Source: Sipunculus nudus (taxonomy: Eukaryota > Annelida > Sipuncula > Golfingiida > Sipunculidae). From it: a stretch of 64,000 bases of DNA. The stretch is taken from the NCBI GenBank assembly GCA_026874595.1, contig CM049307.1, positions 78,964,643 through 79,028,642 of the forward strand, given 5' to 3'. Both the position numbers and the translations under genes were made by a program. Each line of letters starts with the position of its first letter. The stretch's first letter is position 1. The notes below the pieces were generated by a model that worked only from the letters and a program-made list of their open reading frames with translations, did no database searches and was not told where the DNA came from. Shown here one piece after another: positions 8,414-54,810 of the stretch.

Positions 8414-9377
8414 ATGTGAATTTTTATCAAAGCAATGTTTTCAAGTAAATAATTGTAAGTAAACACGAGGGTGCCAGTATTCAAGCGACTATGTGTGTTT
8501 GAGCATATAGGATATATCCTAAAGTAAACTTTACTGACTACTCATTCCCGGGACATCCATTATCTTTGCGATTCTTGTCCAAATGTTTGCTACTTTGATA
8601 GCATCCTTGTGGTCAGCCGCTCGAGGGTTGTATAAACACTCGTTCCTACGAACAAGCTCTATTAGCTTCTTTATAGGACAGGAGATGTTCGCCATCTTTC
8701 CATACGTGCACGTGCATGGATTTAAACACATGCACAATTTTATTTTAAATGCACCCGTTGACCTGGCGCGGGGGAACTGTTGGGACATGTAGTCTTTTTG
8801 CCATCCGCAAAACGGATGAATCGCTTACCGATCCGTTTCGATGCTGTCCGTTTTAGCGGATACGCATGCGGAGCACATTAAAACGTATGGAAACAGTTCA
8901 TCTTACAAAGAGGGATCCGATTTTTTGCGTACGAGACGTACGAGATTTACGGATGAATGGAAACACAGCTTTACTTTAAACTGCGACATACCACAATTGA
9001 GGCATTACGGTTTTTTTTATGCAAATGTAATATATAAGTAAATTATTAATGCTTAATACCTGAAACCATATCACAATTCATCTCTTTGTGATAGTCATTT
9101 GTGGATGAGCTGCGGAAGACCAAGTCTGCCCTTCCACCAAAGCCGCTACAATTATCCAGGCCCAACGCCCGCGACTCTTGGTCCGTAACCGCACTAGTAA
9201 ATAAGCTGGATCTTGAATAGGTTTTCTCTGTTCGCACCAGGGGCGTAGCCAGGATTGAGGGAGGGGAGGGGGCCATCATCAGTGGCGGATCAAGAAAATC
9301 GAAAACGGGGGTTGGGGGGGGGGGGTGTAGGGGTGATAATTTCCATGTATGGGCAATAGGAAAACGGTTATATATAC

Positions 9378-10896: not shown

Positions 10897-10900
10897 TTAA
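10897..10900. other. TTAA target-site duplication, left
   Basis: TTAA immediately precedes the left terminal inverted repeat and is matched by TTAA at 20663-20666. Confidence 0.85.
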
Positions 10901-10913
10901 AGGCCTACTTCCA
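10901..10913 (+). repeat. left terminal inverted repeat
   Basis: AGGCCTACTTCCA, identical to the inverse of 20650-20662. Confidence 0.85.
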
Positions 10914-11086
10914 TGGGAAAAAAATGAAATACCATGATAGGTTATTTTATCAGCACGTGTATGTATTATCTAGGGCAAAATTAAATTCATTCCGTTGACC
11001 GAAACCGCTAAAATCGAAATAAAAAGACCCGTAAACTACCTGGCTGAAGGGCCCTGGGTCAAACGACAGCGTCTCTGGTGACAGCG

Positions 11087-11108
11087 TGTGTGACGTCACA
11101 ACCAGAAC
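11087..11108 (+). promoter_or_regulatory. left subterminal CRE block upstream of transposase
   Basis: TGACGTCA (11091-11098) is the consensus CREB/ATF palindrome. The surrounding 22 bp (TGTG upstream, CAACCAGAAC downstream) are identical to the inverse of 20472-20493. The block lies 55 bp before the transposase ATG and is the likely core promoter; transcription start not determined. Confidence 0.6.
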
Positions 11109-11163
11109 CCTGTGCCAGTAGCCTCTGTATTACTCTGGCATTATCTTTTGGTATATTGAGGAA

Positions 11164-11640
11164 ATGCCAGAGCGTTGTGTCGTAGGACGATGTAACAACA
11201 CCAAGTGTGATGGTGTAAGTCTGCACAGGTTTCCTTCACTGTTGAAACCACATGCCCGAGCTAAATGGACCAATTTTGTCCGTCAGAAGAGGCCGAAATG
11301 GACACCAAGCATGACCTCTGTCATTTGCTCTAGCCATTTTAAACCTGACGATTTTGAGGGGACACAGATGAAGGCAAGAGGTTACAGAAGCCGCCTCACG
11401 TTAAAACAAGCTGCAGTACCAAGTGTCCAGGCAACACCAGGTCTCATCTCTCTGTCAGTAGGACCAAAAAGCCGAAAAAGGTCTGCCCGCTCTCAACTGT
11501 CAGTGGGCACAGAAGGGGAATTCCGTTCAGGGACGTCGCGACATGGCGCCACGCAGGCTGAGACGTCGGGACATGACGCCACTCCGTCTGAAACGTCTAG
11601 GAAGAGACGTCAAGTGGCAAGGAAACTCCTAGTGTCTCGT
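11164..11640 (+). CDS. transposase exon 1: THAP DNA-binding domain
   Basis: MPERCVVGRCNN opens a classic THAP finger, followed by a Ser/Thr/Arg-rich linker with a repeated R-H-x-A/D-T phrase (GTSRHGATQAETSGHDATPS). The donor GTGAGT follows at 11641. The ATG is the first in the frame and the THAP domain begins at residue 1 as usual for the family. Confidence 0.88.
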
Positions 11641-13250
11641 GTGAGTATAAATTCATGTACATTTGTGTAGATAATTGAAATAAAGTACTTGATGAGTGCA
11701 TTGAAAGAATAAAAATTACTTTGCAGGGCTTGATCCCTTGCCGGTCCATGACAGAAGTCACGTGACTGCTCGATGGGCTGTCATTGTCAAAAAAAACCCT
11801 GCAGTTTCTGCATGATAATATTTAAATCCTTTCAATGATAATGCTAATGTCTTGTATTAATTTTGATTATTTTTAATATCTCCATGAAACTAGACACGAA
11901 AGAACATTTTAAATGAAAAACACTGAAGAAGCGATGGATTTAGACTGTGATGCATTTATTCATAACGACTGTACATGTGTCATTGACACATTAGCTTGTA
12001 GACCCTGTTCCGAAGAAGACAACCCCGGAGACGGCGATCCCTCGGGTCTGTACTCACGTTAATTCAACCTCGATGACAGCAAGCCCTCGAGTACGTACTT
12101 ACGTTAGGCCATCTTCAACCAGAGGGACCCAGTGCAGAAGAAAGCCACCAAGTAGGAGTAAAGGTATTAAAAGGATTGTGACCTAATAAAATTTTGAGCT
12201 AATATTCTAATAATTATTTTAGATATATTAGTGAGTGTGAATGAAAGTTATTTATTTCGAATATTATAAAAAATATATTTGTAATAATAATTTTGAGTCA
12301 ATACATTCATATAATTAATCATTTTATATAATTAAGAAAAAAGAGTATATGTAATAATCATATAATTTAATAATAATAAATTATATATATATAAATATCA
12401 TGTAAACTCATGTTTGTATGTGTAATAATAGAATATAGATAACAGAATGAAGACGCCTTAGTGTTGACTAACTGTTTAATTCAACCACGAGCTTTCGAAA
12501 CTTATAGCTTCTTCATCAGGTGTCAAGGTGTGAAGAAGCTATAAGCTTCGAAAGCTCGTGGTTGAATTAAACAGTTAGTCAACACTAAGGCGTCTTCATT
12601 CTGTTATCTATACACTGAGGGACTAACACGGCTATACGCATTCTACATAATAATAGAATATATATACACACATATATATATATATAATAGTATATGGAAT
12701 TGATTTATTTATCAGTTAAAGTGAATAAAAGTTGTTTATTCGACTGTGTGTAATATTAAAAGTAACAATAATAATAATATAATTATTGTGTTATATTTTA
12801 ATATTTATTTTCTATTTATTAGTTAGTGTTATTGAAAGTTATTTATTTCAAATATTATATAAAATATATTTGTAATAATAATTTTGATTGAATACACATA
12901 ATTAATGATTTTATATAATTAAGAAAAAGAATAAATTTAATTATAACATAAATTATAATAATTATATATATATATATATATGTATAAAAAAGCAAAGTTG
13001 TTAAATATAAATAAATATAGAGAATATGTTTTTATATATTTATTAGTTAAAGTGAATGAAAGTTGTTTATTTTGAATGTGTGTGTAATAATAATAATAAT
13101 AAATATATATGCACATTTAATAAAAATTTTTATTTAGTTTTGATATTGTTAACATAGAAAATGAATATAATTATATATAATATAATAATGATTATTTTAT
13201 TAATATTATTAATTATATTTATAATTATGTAGTTATATTGTTAAAACAGA

Positions 13251-13301
<51 letters not shown>

Positions 13302-15054
13302 TATCAATTTATATGGTTTTAGATAGTAAATAGTAAATGGTAACTGAAGCTGTTCATTTTGTTATTTATATTTATTTAAAAATATTAAGTTAACATTATG
13401 TGGTCAGCAGTATCCAAACAAACATTGGTGTATTTAGTATTAATATTCATAAAGATATTTCTTTATTTTAGTGACACAGGTACCACCCATAGTTATGGTG
13501 TCAGTAGGAGTACAGTGTAATCTGACTGCACCAGAACCAGTGCCAGTTGACACATCTACACCTGTCCACAGTCCTGTCTGCATGTCCTGGAGTGATGATT
13601 CAGAGGGTATCCAAGAGGTGTTTGACAGTGATTACATGCCATCAGCAAGCGAGTCAGCCTTTTCAGGCCAATCTGACAATGATGTTACTGTGCAGTAGGT
13701 ATTTTGTAATCTGACCAACAAATTTATAGGTTTATCAATTATTATAATTTTTTTATGAGATATATACAAATATGTACTAAGTTTTATAATTATGAATGCT
13801 TAAGGGTTGGCACATACAATGTTATGGTCTGTGCGTAATAAAGAACCCATGGTTCATGGACCACATGCAAATGTTATACATAATCATTTTAAATGTAAAA
13901 AGCGTCTAATCTGAAATGATTATATGGTTGATATGTAATTTCAAGCCATATGTACCCTATAGCCCCCCCCCCCCCCCCACACACACACATAAACATTAGT
14001 ATGTTTGATATATTTGTTGTTTCAGAACACCAACAGAAATCCCATCTGAGCCCCAAGCTGAACCTAAGTACATGGTGTTCCAGTCATGCTTGCTTGATCT
14101 GTTCAAAACATGCCCATCCTGCTCAGCCACCTCAAAAGCCTGGGTTCACGAAGAAACTGGCACAATGGTCACAATCCAACAGAGCTGTCAAACCTGTGGT
14201 TATGAGAGGAAGTGGAGTAGTCAGCCATACATGAGAGGGTAAGTTGAGTTATATTCATTTTTAAGGGTTGGTGTTATATCCAAGGAAGAGACATTACATT
14301 TTGGAGGAAACCTGAGGCACTATAATAAAGTTTTAACTCAAAGGATTTATTTTATTGCAAAATATAGCCATTTCTTTGTCACAGATCTATTCAATGGTAT
14401 TAGGGGGTGGTTTGTAGCAGAGGTGACCTTGGATGAGCCATGGGGTTCTTTAAACTTGACAGCTGTGTACACAGAAAATCCTGACAAGGTTTGTAGAGCC
14501 TGACTACTTCTTGTGTATATAATGGTTAATTGTCTAGATATGGACACTTGTGAAACATCACCTAGATTCATGAGGTATGCCAACATTTTAAGTATTCACT
14601 TCATATATATTGATAATATGATTGGTATGTTTATCAAAAAGGAAGCAAATGTTCATTTTTAACTTTATTTTTGTTTTACAGGATGCCTGCAGGCAATCTG
14701 ATATTGTCTGCTGCAATACTCTTCTCAGGGTCCCTTGCAGCAAAGGTTATCAGGATGTTCTCAATCATGAAAATGGCCTGCATCAGCTCAGGAACATTCT
14801 ACAGGCATCAGAAAAACTTTCTCCATCCCACTATAAACAACTGCTGGAAGACTGAGCAAACTCAACTACTGCAGTCTCTGGACAAAGAACAAGGTCTAAT
14901 ATTAGCAGGGGATGCAAGATGTGATAGTCCGGGTCACTGTGCAAAGTACGGATCATACACTTTGTTAGAGTCAACCAAGAACAAGATCATTGATGTCCAG
15001 TTGGTGCAGGCAAGGATAACTATTTTACAAAATATATGTACAATATTATTTAAA

Positions 15055-15103
<49 letters not shown>

Positions 15104-16746
15104 TGCAACAGATGTAGTACATTCATTTCCATAATATAAATTAATAACTTTGAGAGGTCGTGGCAAATGATTTGACATTGTTTACATTCAAATGATTTGG
15201 CATAGATTTTAATCTAAACTGATATGGTGACACCAGATATTGGAATAAAAAAAATTCCTGATACTCATGAGAGATTTTTTCCTTTTTCAGAGCAATGAGG
15301 TACCAAACAGCAGCTGGTGTGAGCTTGAGGGACTACAAAGGGGTGTAACAATGCTATCAGAGCAAGGGTTTGTGATTAAAGAACTCATCACTGACAGACA
15401 CAAACAGGTGTCTAGCTGGGTGAAGAAGAACCTGCCCCAGACAAACCACTACTACGATGTATGGCATGTTGCTAAAGGTACTTTATTACTGCTAGTTGTA
15501 TCATATATGTTCATTTAAGATCAATACCATACTCATTTCACTTTAGCTGGTAAGTTACCATGATTTGATCTTGTAGGTTACAGTAGGTATGCAAAACTTT
15601 CTTTTACACTAAAATTCTATACCCAGGGTTCACATTGGTTATTGTTTATATTATACCTAATCAGTAAAGTATTTTTATATATATGAAATCTAAGGAATCC
15701 TTTACACCCTGAAAATATTTATATTGAGCAAATTTACATTTCACATTCTAGTGATCATTAGGTTACTACAAATATACATACATCAAGGCTAACTTGTATT
15801 CTTGATTACAGGTCTTGGTAAGAAACTACATGCCTTGGGACGCGTTAAAGGATGTGAGGATGTTACCCTTTGGACCCCCTCCATTATTAACCATATTTAT
15901 TGGTTTGCACAGTCAGCCCAAGATCCAGATGTCCGGGTGGCTAAATGGGAGTCGTTGGTTAACCACATGCAGAACTGTCATGAAGGCCACAGCAACATAT
16001 ACCCCGCGTGCGAGCATGCACCCCTCACAGAAGAGGAGAGGGACAAACAGTGGTTGGTGCCTGGTAATGAATATGGTTTTTCATAAATATTTAATTAGTT
16101 AAATTTACATGTATCTTATTTCTAAGATCTGATTGAACATTTCCAGGTGCGGATCCAGGGTTTTTTTGCAAGGGGGGGGGGGGGGGGGGGGGGGGAATAG
16201 GTGTCACTGAGTGATTATTCCAGAAATTTACCCGTCATGGTTTAAAATTGGTCAAAAAATAAGTTGGTGGTTGACAGCAGGGAATGATCTTGACCCCCCC
16301 CCCCCCCCCCCTCGATCTGCGCCTGCATTTCTTCTGTGGTCTCATTTCACCATTTAGTGAAACAACAGAAACTTGCATGGATTAGTGCTGCCCCTGTCCT
16401 TCATTTATTCAATATCCATATCAATATCCAACAAAATTATATCTAAGGGGATGTCTAAATTTCTCAGCTGAATTTGTTTTTAAAATTTGATAAATGTAAA
16501 ATATACTTATTTCTCAGAGGAATAGAGTTGCAGTAATCCAATTTTTGCGTTTGGTAGAACTTGGGGACATCTAACTGTATGTTGAATTTTAGATTTGTAG
16601 GTGCAATGGTTTCAAAATGTGCCCTGTTAACAAACGGATGGACAACAAGGGATCATCACTATACTAGTATAGCTCAGATGACTTGAATTCAGCTGAGCTA
16701 AAAAGTGCTGTGCAGATTATCCATGATGTCTGAAAACGCTTAATTG

Positions 16747-16803
<57 letters not shown>

Positions 16804-18116
16804 TTACAATCCATATGTAATTTCTTTTTCAAAGGCACAAAAGCCTTTATATATATATATATATAATTTTTTACAATCCATATGTAATTTCTTTTTCAAA
16901 GGCACAAAAGCCTGTGAGAAACTGTCAGATGTGTTGACAACCCCCTTCTTACTCAAGGACCTTCGAAAATTGTCCTCAAGATACCAGACGGCATCGCTTG
17001 AGGCCTTCCACAGCCTCATTTTGCAGTTTGCCCCAAAGCTTGTAGGATTTTCCTACTTGGGTCAATATTGCAGGTAAATATTTACCTATGAACACAGAAA
17101 AATTTGTTTACTGCCAATGGGAATCCACACCATTACCTTCCCATTGCTGGTCATTTGTTCAATTCCAAATGACACTGAACCAGCTTTTCTGTGGATCCAT
17201 TTTCAATATATATTATATATATATATACATACATATTTATATTCATATATATATATATATATGTGTGTGTGTATATACTATATATATGTTAAAAATTTGG
17301 TTATTTACATATATATCTTTATATTATTAATCTAGCTTGAATGACAAAACATCCCACATATGGGGATCAGTGGCTGGTATAGTTGTTAATCAATAATAGC
17401 TTCGGATGAAAATTATATGACTTTTCTTTGACACATATTTTTTATGATTATTCAAGTAAATATGAGAGGAATTTTGAAAATCTTGAAGCACTTCTTTATG
17501 TTTCAGAACAGTGCTAGCTGTAATGCACTACAATGGCAACAGTGAGAGATCACAGGCTACCACACAAGATGGAACACCAAGATTTGCCATAAGGTTTCCA
17601 AAATTCAAGAAAGGAGGGCATAGTGTTTGTGTGACCAAAGAAAACCCTTCATATGGTAAATAGTCATTGAAATGGTGGTCCTGATAATATTTTGATTACA
17701 ATACATGTATATCAAAGCTGGGGCAAATTTATTGGCTTAATTATTTAACACAACTTTCAAACTTTTTTGTATTTTATGATGATATAATAAAAATGTAGGG
17801 GTTGTATTTTCTTTCTTTCAAATAATATTACAAGGCCTGTTAAAATGCATTGTACAATTGACTTCATACTAGGCTATATAAACATGTACTAGTAGGCTCA
17901 TATTTCTCAACATAAAAATTCTTATACTATTCTACAGACTATGTGGATAAGCTGATGGATGCATTGATCAAGGCCTACAGAGAAGATCCTCACATTCTGA
18001 AGAACAGCATAAGAGAGGAGAGGGCAGCTGTTCCAGACACTCTAGCATCAGCAATGGTCCGTCCCATCAAGGAAGTGGCTGTAGCAGCAGCTCACTTGAG
18101 TCGATTCCGCACTTAA
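11164..18116 (+). CDS. Kolobok-type THAP-DDE transposase, 9 exons, intact
   Basis: Exons 11164-11640, 13480-13694, 14026-14238, 14682-15009, 15291-15477, 15812-16063, 16902-17073, 17507-17655 and 17938-18116 join in phase to 723 codons plus TAA. Residues 1-66 are a THAP C2CH zinc finger (C5, C10, C55, H58; P24, W35, F59), which binds the element ends. Residues near 250-290 have paired CxxC motifs (CPSC, CQTC). The catalytic core holds AGDARCDSPGH (D379/D383), ELITDRH (D446), YYDVWHVAKG (D467) and SLEAFHS (E591), a DDE/D layout for cut-and-paste transposition in the nucleus. Exons 3 to 9 are fixed by the conserved domain and consistent phases. The exon 1/2 junction is less certain: GTGAGT at 11641 paired with cag at 13477-13479 is phase-correct, and an upstream tag is an alternative. 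Intron 4 starts with GC, not GT. Confidence 0.88.
12436..12609. repeat. near-perfect 80-bp palindrome in transposase intron 1
   Basis: The left arm begins agataacagaatgaagacgc and is repeated inverted, with one substitution, after a spacer of about 15 bp (12516-12531). It carries CTGATGA...GAAA on the minus strand (12493-12519). It is the same family as 8103-8330 and looks like a head-to-head pair of Penelope-like tails. Confidence 0.75.
12620..13460. other. transposase intron 1: AT-rich diverged tandem repeats
   Basis: The phrases gtgaatgaaagttatttatt and taataataattttga recur with drift at about 12230, 12720, 12830 and 13050, so the intron has expanded by imperfect tandem duplication of about 600-bp blocks. 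A (TA)n tract lies at 13253-13297. Confidence 0.55.
13253..13297. repeat. (TA)n microsatellite
   Basis: About 20 TA units within transposase intron 1. Confidence 0.9.
15007..15012 (+). other. GC-AG type intron donor (exon 4/intron 4)
   Basis: The exon ends CAG and the intron begins GCAAGG. The 3' site is cctttttcag at 15281-15290. Joining here gives a continuous DVQLVQ-SNEV reading frame in phase 0, matching the family pattern; the nearest upstream GT (15004) would delete residues. Confidence 0.7.
15057..15101. repeat. (TA)n microsatellite in intron 4
   Basis: About 22 TA units, 50 bp into the GC-AG intron. Confidence 0.9.
16144..16325. mobile_element. 182-bp MITE in transposase intron 6
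   Basis: The ends CAGGTGCGGATCCAGGG and the inverse of CAGGCGCAGATCGAGGG form imperfect inverted repeats. The direct repeat CATTTC flanks both sides (16138-16143, 16326-16331). The interior is dominated by G and C homopolymer runs. Confidence 0.6.
16570..16703. mobile_element. right-end fragment of an AGCTCAG element in intron 6
   Basis: gccctgttaacaaacggatg...agctcagatgacttgaattc...agctgagct matches the right end of the tandem-repeat family best seen at 36130-36246. Confidence 0.6.
16752..16799. repeat. (TA)n microsatellite
   Basis: About 24 TA units directly upstream of the 67-bp splice-site duplication. Confidence 0.9.
16795..16913 (+). repeat. 67-bp tandem duplication carrying a decoy 3' splice site
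   Basis: ttttttacaatccatatgta through ggcacaaaagcct occurs twice, offset 67 bp. Both copies contain the polypyrimidine tract and AG; the first AG (16833-16834) is the decoy, the second (16900-16901) opens exon 7 in frame. Use of the decoy would read into TA repeats and hit TAA within about 11 codons. Confidence 0.85.
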
Positions 18117-18297
18117 AGAAGCCCACGAACAATTTAAATGTGTGATTATACAACCTGCATATTAATAACAGAATAGTTTATGTTTATAGTATTCTCAGTG
18201 TATAAAAAAGAGAAAAATTCATTCTCAGTGCTATTTTACTAAATATTTAATTTTGCAAAAAGTGTCCAACTATCCATATGGAGTTCCATTTACAGCA

Positions 18298-18460
18298 CTA
18301 GATGTCTGGCCACCTGAAGCCTTTATATGTGTTATTATCATCGGGGAATGTCGCCCTGATCAAGTTTACTGCACAAGATGGCAATGGGACACGACTGTGC
18401 TTGCCCAGGTACCCCCAACACCACCTTACTAGTTGACGATATGCAGTGTACCGATATTTC
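18298..18460 (-). CDS. ballast gene last exon
   Basis: From acceptor AG at 18461-18462 to TAG at 18298-18300. It holds the AYRQ...WCWGYLG and LPSC motifs. The frame also stays open upstream into the intron, but only the join to the previous exon restores the family's EKYRYTAYR sequence. Confidence 0.75.
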
Positions 18461-20438
18461 CTGCAAAGAACAGACCTGTATGTGAGACCTTTTGTGAAAA
18501 AAATGTTTGTCAAAGGTAAAACATATCCTATTGTTACCCTTTGACTGCAGAACTTTAATTTGTTCTGAGATTGTCAAAGGTCCAGATGCCATATGTCCAT
18601 TATTAAAACACCTGATCTTCAAACTGCTTCAGTGTTATAGATGTTTAATATTTTATGTTACATCACCAGCTAATGCCAGCTATGACAAAAAAATTTTCCA
18701 TGAAATTTGCTATGATAAAACTTGGTTGTGTAGTTTAAGCTTATTTCCGTCATTTTATAATTGGACTTACTCATGAATAGCCATATTAACAGGCCCATAC
18801 TGCTGTCGATATTGGTGGTAAGCCATTGCTAGCACCCATGGGTTTAAACAAACTGCTTCAAACCCAGGGTGCTGAGTGACACATGAAATCTCTGGCATCT
18901 GTAAATCCTGCACAGTGCTCAAGATTTTTTCACACTCTTGGCAGCAACCACTCTGTTCATCTTTGGCCATGACTACACACCTGCCACACTTGCACCTTTC
19001 ATATAATATAATTGTCTCAGATATATTGTGTATAAACAATTTTATTTTTTAATATAAGAATAAACTGCTGAATCAAAACAATTGGAGAGCAAGCTATTTT
19101 TATATTAGGGGAAATAGTTTATAGATAAAAATATATGATCAATTATTATTATGGTTTCCATATTAAATTTGTTGATTGTTACATGGGATTTATATATTAT
19201 CTTGCCTAAGAGAGTTAATGCTTTACAATAATAGAAGTTCTTCTATCACTTAATGGTAATGTAGCTGACAACATTTATTCATGCATACACACTTTATACA
19301 GACAGAATGGAAGTAGTCATTGTAACTTCAATTTGGTGCCGGCACCAATAATAAAGTATGATCAATATGCTCTTCTCTGTATCAAGTACTAGCCCCCTTA
19401 AAAATATTTTTTAAATAATTATATATATATATACATATATATATCCATAATTTTAATGCAGATTTATTTTACCAATGCTTCAATAATAAGACAGGATATC
19501 CATTTTGAACTTTTGTAAAGTGACCCAAATATTACTAACAAAATTTGATATCTCTTTGAGAGCGTATTTAGGATGTTAGATGACATTACTGACACTGTGG
19601 ATCCAAAATAGCTGTCAAAATGGGCCTTCTAGAACTGTTATTAATATAAAATGGGAACTGCGTTTGGGAATTCAACCCCCCCCCCCCTATATTACAGGGG
19701 AATATTTTCCCGGTGTGAGTAAAATTCTACATTTTATTATATATGTAACTAATGAGCAGGCCTTGCATTGTTATTGGTAATGTTGCACTTGTATTAAGTT
19801 GTAACTGTAAGGTCTAAGGACAACAATTCATGTCAGTTCCTTTTGTCTTGACCCTCGCTTCAAATGCAGGCCGGAATCTTAGCATTTATCCTTTTTCATA
19901 AACCTGATAACAAAATAAATCAAACTTTGCAACAACAACAAAAATGTAGGATTATAATGATGTTTAACCCGACGCGTAATCAACCGATTGTATCACAACA
20001 AAACGATATGACGCCCATGACATGAGCGATATTAAGTTCAGCAGACCATGCCAAGAATTCTGAAAGTTCTCAACACATTACCTACGTATTGTATCATTGT
20101 GCATTTTCCAATAAAATATGTTGGGTATGGAACTGTCTAATAGCAATAGCCTAATGCTGTCATAATAATCACCAAAACAACTGGCCAGCTCGAGAAACCG
20201 TGGGAGAAGTTGCTGCCGCTCCATTAGACCCAGTGTCTTCTTGGCTGTCACCATTGCTCGCACTCGCCGTCGTCTTCCGAGCCCGAGGCTCAAAACGATA
20301 GGGAGCTATAACTGCTAAGGGTGGGAAATCTCTAGATTCACCGTCATCGCTATATTCTTCATCATCATATACGATCACGTTCTCCTCGGATCCGGACGAG
20401 AAGCGCTCCTCGCTTGAGCAGCTTCCCTCGTCAGCCAT
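18298..20438 (-). CDS. ballast-domain protein (P2X7 C-terminus-like), second gene of the transposon
   Basis: Minus strand. Exon 1 starts at the ATG 20438-20436 (MADEGSCSSEERFSSGSEE), an acidic Ser/Glu-rich N-terminus leading to APYRFEPRARK; its 3' end (near 20170-20250) is unresolved. A later exon, about 19015-18771, encodes CKCGRC, a CC..C cluster and HPGFEAVCLNPWVLAMAYHQ, ending at a strong GTAAGT donor (18770). The last exon, 18460-18298 (acceptor ttctttgcag), encodes EKYRYTAYRQLVRWCWGYLG, then LPSCAVNLIRATFP and YKGFRWPDI before TAG. The two exons join in phase. The Cys spacing, AYR...W..G, LPSC and IR..FP signatures are those of the Zn/GDP-binding ballast domain at the C-terminus of vertebrate P2X7 and of many stand-alone invertebrate proteins. 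No membrane segments, so a soluble protein, not a receptor. Role in transposition unknown. Confidence 0.75.
18771..19015 (-). CDS. ballast gene internal exon with Cys cluster
   Basis: Encodes ERCKCGRCVVM, GCCQECEKI and CVTQHPGFEAVCLNPWVL. The donor is GTAAGT at 18770-18765. The 5' boundary at a ctgag (19016-19020) is phase-0 but has a weak pyrimidine tract, so an alternative start is possible. Confidence 0.7.
19040..20160. other. ballast gene intron, AT-rich
   Basis: No other exon-like frame with good splice sites was found between the Cys-cluster exon and exon 1, although one small exon may be missed. A short (TA)n run lies at about 19421-19443. Confidence 0.4.
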
Positions 20439-20471
20439 GATAACACCTTGGCTTGAGGGCAAATCCCGGGA

Positions 20472-20493
20472 GTTCTGGTTGTGACGTCACACA
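20472..20493 (-). promoter_or_regulatory. right subterminal CRE block upstream of ballast gene
   Basis: Exact inverse of 11087-11108, again centred on TGACGTCA, 34 bp before the ballast ATG (20438). This implies the two genes share a promoter module. Confidence 0.6.
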
Positions 20494-20649
20494 GCTCCAA
20501 AGGGCTGCCCCAACTTTTTCAGGCGCTCTCCCTGATGCCGTCCACAAATTCGTTCGCTAAACCGATTGGAACGTCCACAGGTAGCAAATTGATACGGGAA
20601 TTTTTTTCATGGACCCACAGCTTACTTTTATTAAAAATCATGTTGTGGG

Positions 20650-20662
20650 TGGAAGTAGGCCT
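20650..20662 (-). repeat. right terminal inverted repeat
   Basis: Inverse of AGGCCTACTTCCA, flush with TTAA. Confidence 0.85.
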
Positions 20663-20666
20663 TTAA
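20663..20666. other. TTAA target-site duplication, right
   Basis: Matches 10897-10900. Confidence 0.85.
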
Positions 20667-54334: not shown

Positions 54335-54810
54335 CTATGTTACCATACCTATTGCTCTTTCTAAATGTATGCGGGCATTGGTAATGTGCTTTATTAAAGA
54401 AACAGCATATTTGTTTTGCTGATCCCAGCCTGAACTTGGAGTTGGTATATTCAGGTGGGCATGGCGCTGAAGCAAATCGCCTGCTATTGTAAAGCATCTG
54501 TCAGCTAGAATGACATCAGCTGCGTCAATTGTTTTCTGGAAGCCCGGGTCATGGACGACACCTGTGTCGCTTGATCTGCCTCCATACCCTGAAGACAGGA
54601 ATGGTAAGGATTCATTTGGAGATATACCAATCAAGTATTTAATGGTATTATGTTTCTTATAATCACTCCAGGTGAGTTGCTGCAGCTCCAGGTGGCGAGA
54701 CTTCTCTATGAAAACCTCAGTCCAGTCTACTGTGTACCTAAGATTTGGTTACTCCTGGTAAAGCTGATTTGGCAAGTGCTGCTTAATTGCCTCTTTGCAT
54801 GGCCAAAACA
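54335..54810 (-). pseudogene. DDE_4-type transposase (THAP/IS4EU-Harbinger group), broken by a stop
   Basis: The minus frame runs from about 54810 (WPCKEAIKQHLP) to 54335 with one in-frame TAA at 54749-54751. Motifs in order: RYTVDWTEVFIEK (first catalytic Asp, 54725-54727), TWSDYKKHNTIKYLIGISPN, FLSSGYGGRSSDTG, ILADRCF (second Asp, 54500-54502) and HLERAIGMV (Glu, 54359-54361). This is the DDE superfamily-endonuclease layout (DDE_Tnp_4) seen in THAP-linked animal transposases. All three acidic residues are kept, but the stop removes the upstream part. A possible THAP start lies at 55150-55226. Confidence 0.75.

Follow-up and report, generated by a model that had tools for sequence, protein, structure and literature searches.

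The window analyzed here, a 64,000-nucleotide stretch of the Sipunculus nudus genome (assembly GCA_026874595.1, contig CM049307.1, positions 78,964,643 to 79,028,642 of the forward strand), contains a 9,762-bp Kolobok transposon (10901..20662 in window coordinates, which are used throughout). It carries two convergent genes, whose stop codons are 181 bp apart: one on the + strand for a THAP-DDE transposase, and one on the - strand, KolX, for a protein with a domain of the kind that forms the cytoplasmic ballast of vertebrate P2X7.

KolX gene and protein

The predicted KolX product comprises 217 amino acids from three exons on the - strand. Exon 1 (20173..20438) encodes an acidic N-terminal region that closes with the W preceding CKCGRC, exon 2 (18771..18995) contributes zinc cysteines 1 to 6, and exon 3 (18298..18460) the C-terminal part of the ballast domain. 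A preliminary description had recognized the motifs CKCGRC, CC..C, HPGFEAVCLNPW, AYRQ..W.WG, LPSC, and IR..FP...Y.GF across two phase-matched exons. All of them lie on the - strand in the claimed order, and the two exons (18995-18771 and 18460-18298) are indeed separated by a phase-2 GT-AG intron. To these we add the upstream exon 20438-20173, likewise joined in phase 2, whose ATG is the right edge of the interval originally delimited. Its donor is predicted at 20173 in preference to 20182, because the former places W before the first CxC, as seen in 32 of the 38 relatives with enough preceding sequence. The Pfam and relative searches were run with the 214-amino-acid form given by the alternative donor.

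The proposal that this protein bears a P2X7 ballast-type domain was borne out by profile comparison with 24,736 families. The 214-amino-acid form matched Pfam P2RX7_C (PF20478) with E = 8.6e-12 and 45.8 bits (gathering score, 23.5), and this was its sole match at E up to 1, with no P2X channel domain. Among 5.8 billion proteins, 73 of 152 candidates were relatives at E <= 1e-3, and for one KolX relative a fold match to the P2X7 ballast domain was obtained. No nuclease or other catalytic fold was found among the KolX structure matches. KolX thus resembles the ballast domain of P2X7 (PF20478; PDB 6u9v, 8tr6, and 9e3m) without the channel. All seven zinc cysteines of PF20478 are present (C90, C92, C95, C106, C107, C127, and C193), and KolX is predicted to bind zinc through them. 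At the positions of the P2X7 GDP contacts R546, H547, R574, R578, and K583, KolX has R, Y, V, R, and D, i.e., R546 and R578 are retained, H547 is replaced by Y, and R574 and K583 are lost.

A further motif, PYRFEP (20286..20303, - strand; KolX residues 46-51), lies in the N-terminal part, outside the region aligned to P2X7; the profile match begins downstream of it. Of the 38 relatives that begin with M and have 35 or more residues ahead of the first CxC, 32 bear a PYxFEP-like sequence upstream of the zinc domain; one transposase among the best 120 of 393 shows the pattern as well. In the structure model, PYxFEP sits in a low-confidence stretch, presumably a flexible tail. We propose that it is a docking motif; it does not figure in the descriptions given in the accessible text of Kojima & Bao 2022 and Rump 2020.

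Transposase

The transposase gene (11164..18116, + strand) encodes 763 amino acids in 11 exons (11164-11640, 12002-12057, 12108-12163, 13472-13694, 14026-14238, 14682-15009, 15291-15477, 15812-16063, 16902-17073, 17507-17655, and 17938-18116), separated by GT-AG introns except for one GC-AG intron. The product has a THAP domain (2.2e-14) and the catalytic residues D419, D486, DVWH (507-510), and E631. Between DxxH and E, as in Kolobok transposases, lies a putative zinc finger, NCHEGHSNIYPACEH, starting at residue 568, in which H, H, C, and H are invariant in 30 relatives. The transposase profile matched nothing among PDB sequences at E <= 1, and the Pfam matches of the element did not include DDE_Tnp_1_7 (piggyBac). 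The structure match lists contained no P element transposase, an absence that excludes nothing.

Element boundaries and recent mobility

That the gene lies inside transposon boundaries, as the preliminary description had it, is confirmed by several independent features. The element is flanked by TTAA target site duplications (10897..10900 and 20663..20666), placed by the element ends and by empty sites, and has the 5'-AG ... CT-3' termini that conform to the 5'-RR/YY-3' rule of Kolobok; a second copy shows the same termini and has a TTAA duplication of its own. The 13-bp terminal inverted repeats (left, AGGCCTACTTCCA, 10901..10913, + strand; right, 20650..20662, - strand) are both perfect, although taken alone they are the weaker control, since 3 of 100 shuffles also gave two matches when three mismatches were allowed. 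A perfect 22-bp subterminal inverted repeat, with two matches in the element and none in 100 shuffles, lies 5' of each gene: at 11087..11108 (+ strand), 55 bases from the transposase ATG, and at 20472..20493 (- strand), 33 bases from the KolX ATG. No further copy of it was detected within the window with three mismatches allowed. It includes TGACGTCA, which we take to be CRE-like. This repeat may be a promoter element common to both genes or a transposase binding site.

The genome comprises 1.43 Gb in 153 contigs. It holds a second near-full copy of 9,514 bp (contig C3) with identical ends, and the alignment of the two is confined to 10897-20666. The copies differ at 36 of 2,943 aligned bases in coding exons (1.22%; 9 gap columns, made up of three gaps of 3 nucleotides each) and at 93 of 6,471 in noncoding sequence (1.44%; 439 gap columns), and all 12 introns retain their splice dinucleotides. 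In an empty-site search with the window flanks joined at one TTAA (40 matches scored of 478 candidates), six other genomic places matched across the junction; at three of these the junction holds a single TTAA, and at the other three a variant of TTAA differing by one base. The genome search found no empty site for the second copy. The element is therefore a recently mobile Kolobok transposon.

Within a transposase intron, a fold-back with two 82-bp arms, 99% complementary, occupies 12434-12612. It probably represents a nested insertion of some 200 bp that arrived later, because the alignment to the second copy is interrupted at 12444-12648.

Linkage of KolX and transposase in the genome

All match counts that follow for KolX, transposase, and piggyBac are lower bounds. 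The KolX protein query gave at least 93 exon matches, merging into at least 77 loci, and the catalytic part of the transposase gave at least 105 matches at 60 or more loci. Among the matches listed, 21 of the 77 KolX loci had a transposase locus no more than 12 kb away, the distances being 485 to 5,296 bp, and every one of these 21 pairs was arranged tail to tail. In an approximate control, in which transposase loci were put at random on 17 contigs of 84 Mb each, 500 trials averaged 0.096 pairs and never gave more than 2. A scallop transposase query (at least 98 matches) added one more tail-to-tail pair, 402 bp apart, which brings the linked loci to 22/77; these 22 differ in sequence and all share the tail-to-tail order. 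Of the 20 KolX loci covering both the cysteine and the C-terminal parts, the first query linked 17 and the two queries together 18. The majority of complete ballast-protein loci in S. nudus thus appear to be transposon genes.

A second, divergent Kolobok/KolX pair (L017-L018; contig C2, 79964847-79970923) lies roughly 1 Mb away from the element described here, also in tail-to-tail order.

Ballast proteins in other animals

All of the 73 relatives with a named source organism come from animals, with corals, molluscs, annelids, hemichordates, echinoderms, and others represented; the remainder are unnamed. Pattern-based scans confirmed no KolX relative in the viral (viral_contigs) or prokaryote (genome_contigs) collections, and neither a transposase relative nor the exact end sequence in viral_contigs. 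Viral structure models gave no fold match at E <= 0.001.

For linkage of ballast genes to transposases in other animals, NCBI gene numbers serve as a weak test. KolX and transposase numbers differ by 10 or less in two of the eight species with numbers in both lists (Ylistrum, 1; a Branchiostoma hybrid, 9), as judged from the best 120 of 393 transposases. The probability of two such close pairs among eight by chance is about 3e-5, assuming a span of 30,000. The remaining six species show gaps of 180 to 24,344. In Pecten (gap, 180) and the Branchiostoma hybrid, KolX and transposase are on contigs of equal size.

An oyster gene model of 398 amino acids (P0194) combines a THAP domain and a P2RX7_C domain without a DDE domain, and over residues 11-199 it is 34% identical to an oyster Kolobok-type transposase. 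The single search made for longer proteins, which returned one protein from 14 candidates and missed P2X7 itself, is a weak test of fusions.

Relation to known systems

The element type and its link to P2X7 have been in print since 2022, and the S. nudus element is a well-supported additional family. According to the accessible parts of Kojima & Bao 2022 (PMC9587614), KolX of the Kol0 lineage resembles region 476-595 of P2X7, P2X7 arose when a P2X4-like gene fused with KolX, and Nanor is interpreted as a domesticated KolX; several non-Kol0 lineages of Kolobok have nucleases or a helicase as second proteins and others none. Listings of the open-access literature, themselves incomplete, yielded no other work joining Kolobok and P2X7; one additional hit, PMC9319628, contains each of the two words a single time. 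The window element shares with Kol0 Kolobok the TTAA duplication, 5'-RR/YY-3' ends, a DDE transposase that has DxxH and, ahead of the last E, a C/H cluster, and a second protein with the ballast fold, namely KolX.

Rump 2020 (PMC7016195), in its accessible parts, describes stand-alone ballast or zinc domains from sponges onward and P2X7 from bony fish onward; transposons go unmentioned in those parts. Like KolX, Nanor and the stand-alone ZCD proteins treated there are short, with a variable N-terminal part and a zinc domain; Nanor would be domesticated in the sense of Kojima & Bao, whereas the KolX of the window sits inside a mobile element. Two Ixodes proteins are reported there with other domains, "TolA" and "TAHP," before the zinc domain. 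We read "TAHP" as THAP, and the "two markers" linked to ballast genes in that study might be the transposase itself.

The P element transposase, as far as the available text of PMC7776569 goes, also joins a THAP domain to DDE-type catalysis. The window element differs from the P element in its TTAA instead of an 8-bp duplication and in its separate second protein.

Possible role of KolX

We consider it probable that KolX is a gene of a recently mobile Kol0-type Kolobok and serves an accessory function in transposition, a judgment on identity and role together that stands higher than that on role alone because the well-supported identity is weighed in. The element would make KolX as an accessory protein for its own transposition, with the zinc-clamped helical domain as the working part and PYxFEP in the tail docking KolX to the transposase or another partner. 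A noncatalytic contribution is considered the most likely one because KolX shows no nuclease fold among its matches, in contrast to the nuclease or helicase second proteins of other lineages. The ballast domain of vertebrate P2X7 would derive from the fusion of a receptor gene with a KolX-type gene, as put forward by Kojima & Bao 2022 (PMC9587614, accessible parts). The idea of the preliminary description that the receptor domain could have been acquired from such an element agrees with that proposal and is supported.

Several points weigh against this reading. The accessory, noncatalytic role, taken as a step by itself, is plausible but falls a little short of an even chance. Assignment to the Kol0 type is provisional, being made by gene content. 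Between the two copies, KolX shows 8 nonsynonymous and 4 synonymous changes and hence no sign of selection; with 10 nonsynonymous and 14 synonymous changes in the transposase, the comparison gives a hint of selection for that gene alone. Furthermore, 55 of the 77 KolX loci, among the matches listed, have no transposase within 12 kb. The unlinked loci comprise 2 complete ones, 44 with the C-terminal part only, and 9 otherwise incomplete. The four C-terminal-only loci that were read (L033-L036, on contigs C9, C17, C12, and C3) are relics of a single dispersed repeat, which spans at least 2.2 kb, carries a decayed KolX last exon, and has aligned pieces 85-98% alike; they are possibly non-autonomous Kolobok derivatives. 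Reading of five partial loci, each with flanks of about 20 kb, revealed no transposase of their own, and the transposase in the 79.98-Mb stretch near one of them belongs to a different, linked KolX. piggyBac, likewise a transposon with TTAA duplications, served as a control and was considered as a carrier of the unlinked C-terminal-only copies, but was rejected, as none of the 77 KolX loci lay within 12 kb of its at least 101 matches (at least 72 loci).

It is conceivable, if unlikely, that KolX instead restrains transposition, as a repressor made by the element, or counters host silencing. Its conservation in a two-gene element without a detectable catalytic fold would fit such a function, and a protein like P0194, with THAP and KolX parts and no DDE domain, could compete for transposon ends; P0194, however, is represented by one gene model in a single species, and nothing else speaks directly against this possibility. 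That KolX is a host gene picked up by chance and carried as a passenger would fit the lack of purifying selection between the two copies, but is highly improbable given that sequence-divergent loci keep the tail-to-tail pair in 22 of 22 cases and that relatives are named from many animal groups. The reverse flow, in which elements took the domain from P2X7, has only the shared fold in its favor and appears very remote in view of the KolX relatives in corals, molluscs, annelids, hemichordates, echinoderms, and others and of the later appearance of P2X7, from bony fish onward, than of the stand-alone domains, from sponges onward (Rump 2020, PMC7016195, accessible parts). Finally, a chance Cys-rich frame adjoining a transposon, for which nothing was found, is refuted by the Pfam match, the 73 relatives, the fold match of a relative, and the second copy.

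Returning to KolX as an accessory factor, one more specific idea, drawn by analogy, is that it might supply the Kolobok transposition complex with a guanine nucleotide. According to the available text of PMC7776569, the P element requires GTP for end pairing and strand transfer and binds it through an insertion domain. In P2X7, two zinc ions and either GTP or GDP are bound by the ballast domain (PMC9859053, accessible parts). KolX would then act in trans as the insertion domain does in cis. We regard this as a long shot; if it were true, the GTP/GDP pocket of P2X7 would be a relic of a transposition switch.

The locus ties a receptor domain to a mobile element by strong genomic evidence in one animal. 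It bears on the annotation of invertebrate "P2X purinoceptor 7-like" gene families and on claims made about them, and an element with open genes lets the function of the ballast fold be studied outside the channel.

Other features of the window

Outside the element, the window contains a retrotransposon reverse transcriptase and RNase H frame (1-1707, - strand; Pfam RVT_1, 5e-35), a MADF domain fragment (8534-8824, - strand; 1.8e-07), and a DDE_Tnp_4 transposase fragment (54338-54748, - strand; 3.5e-24).
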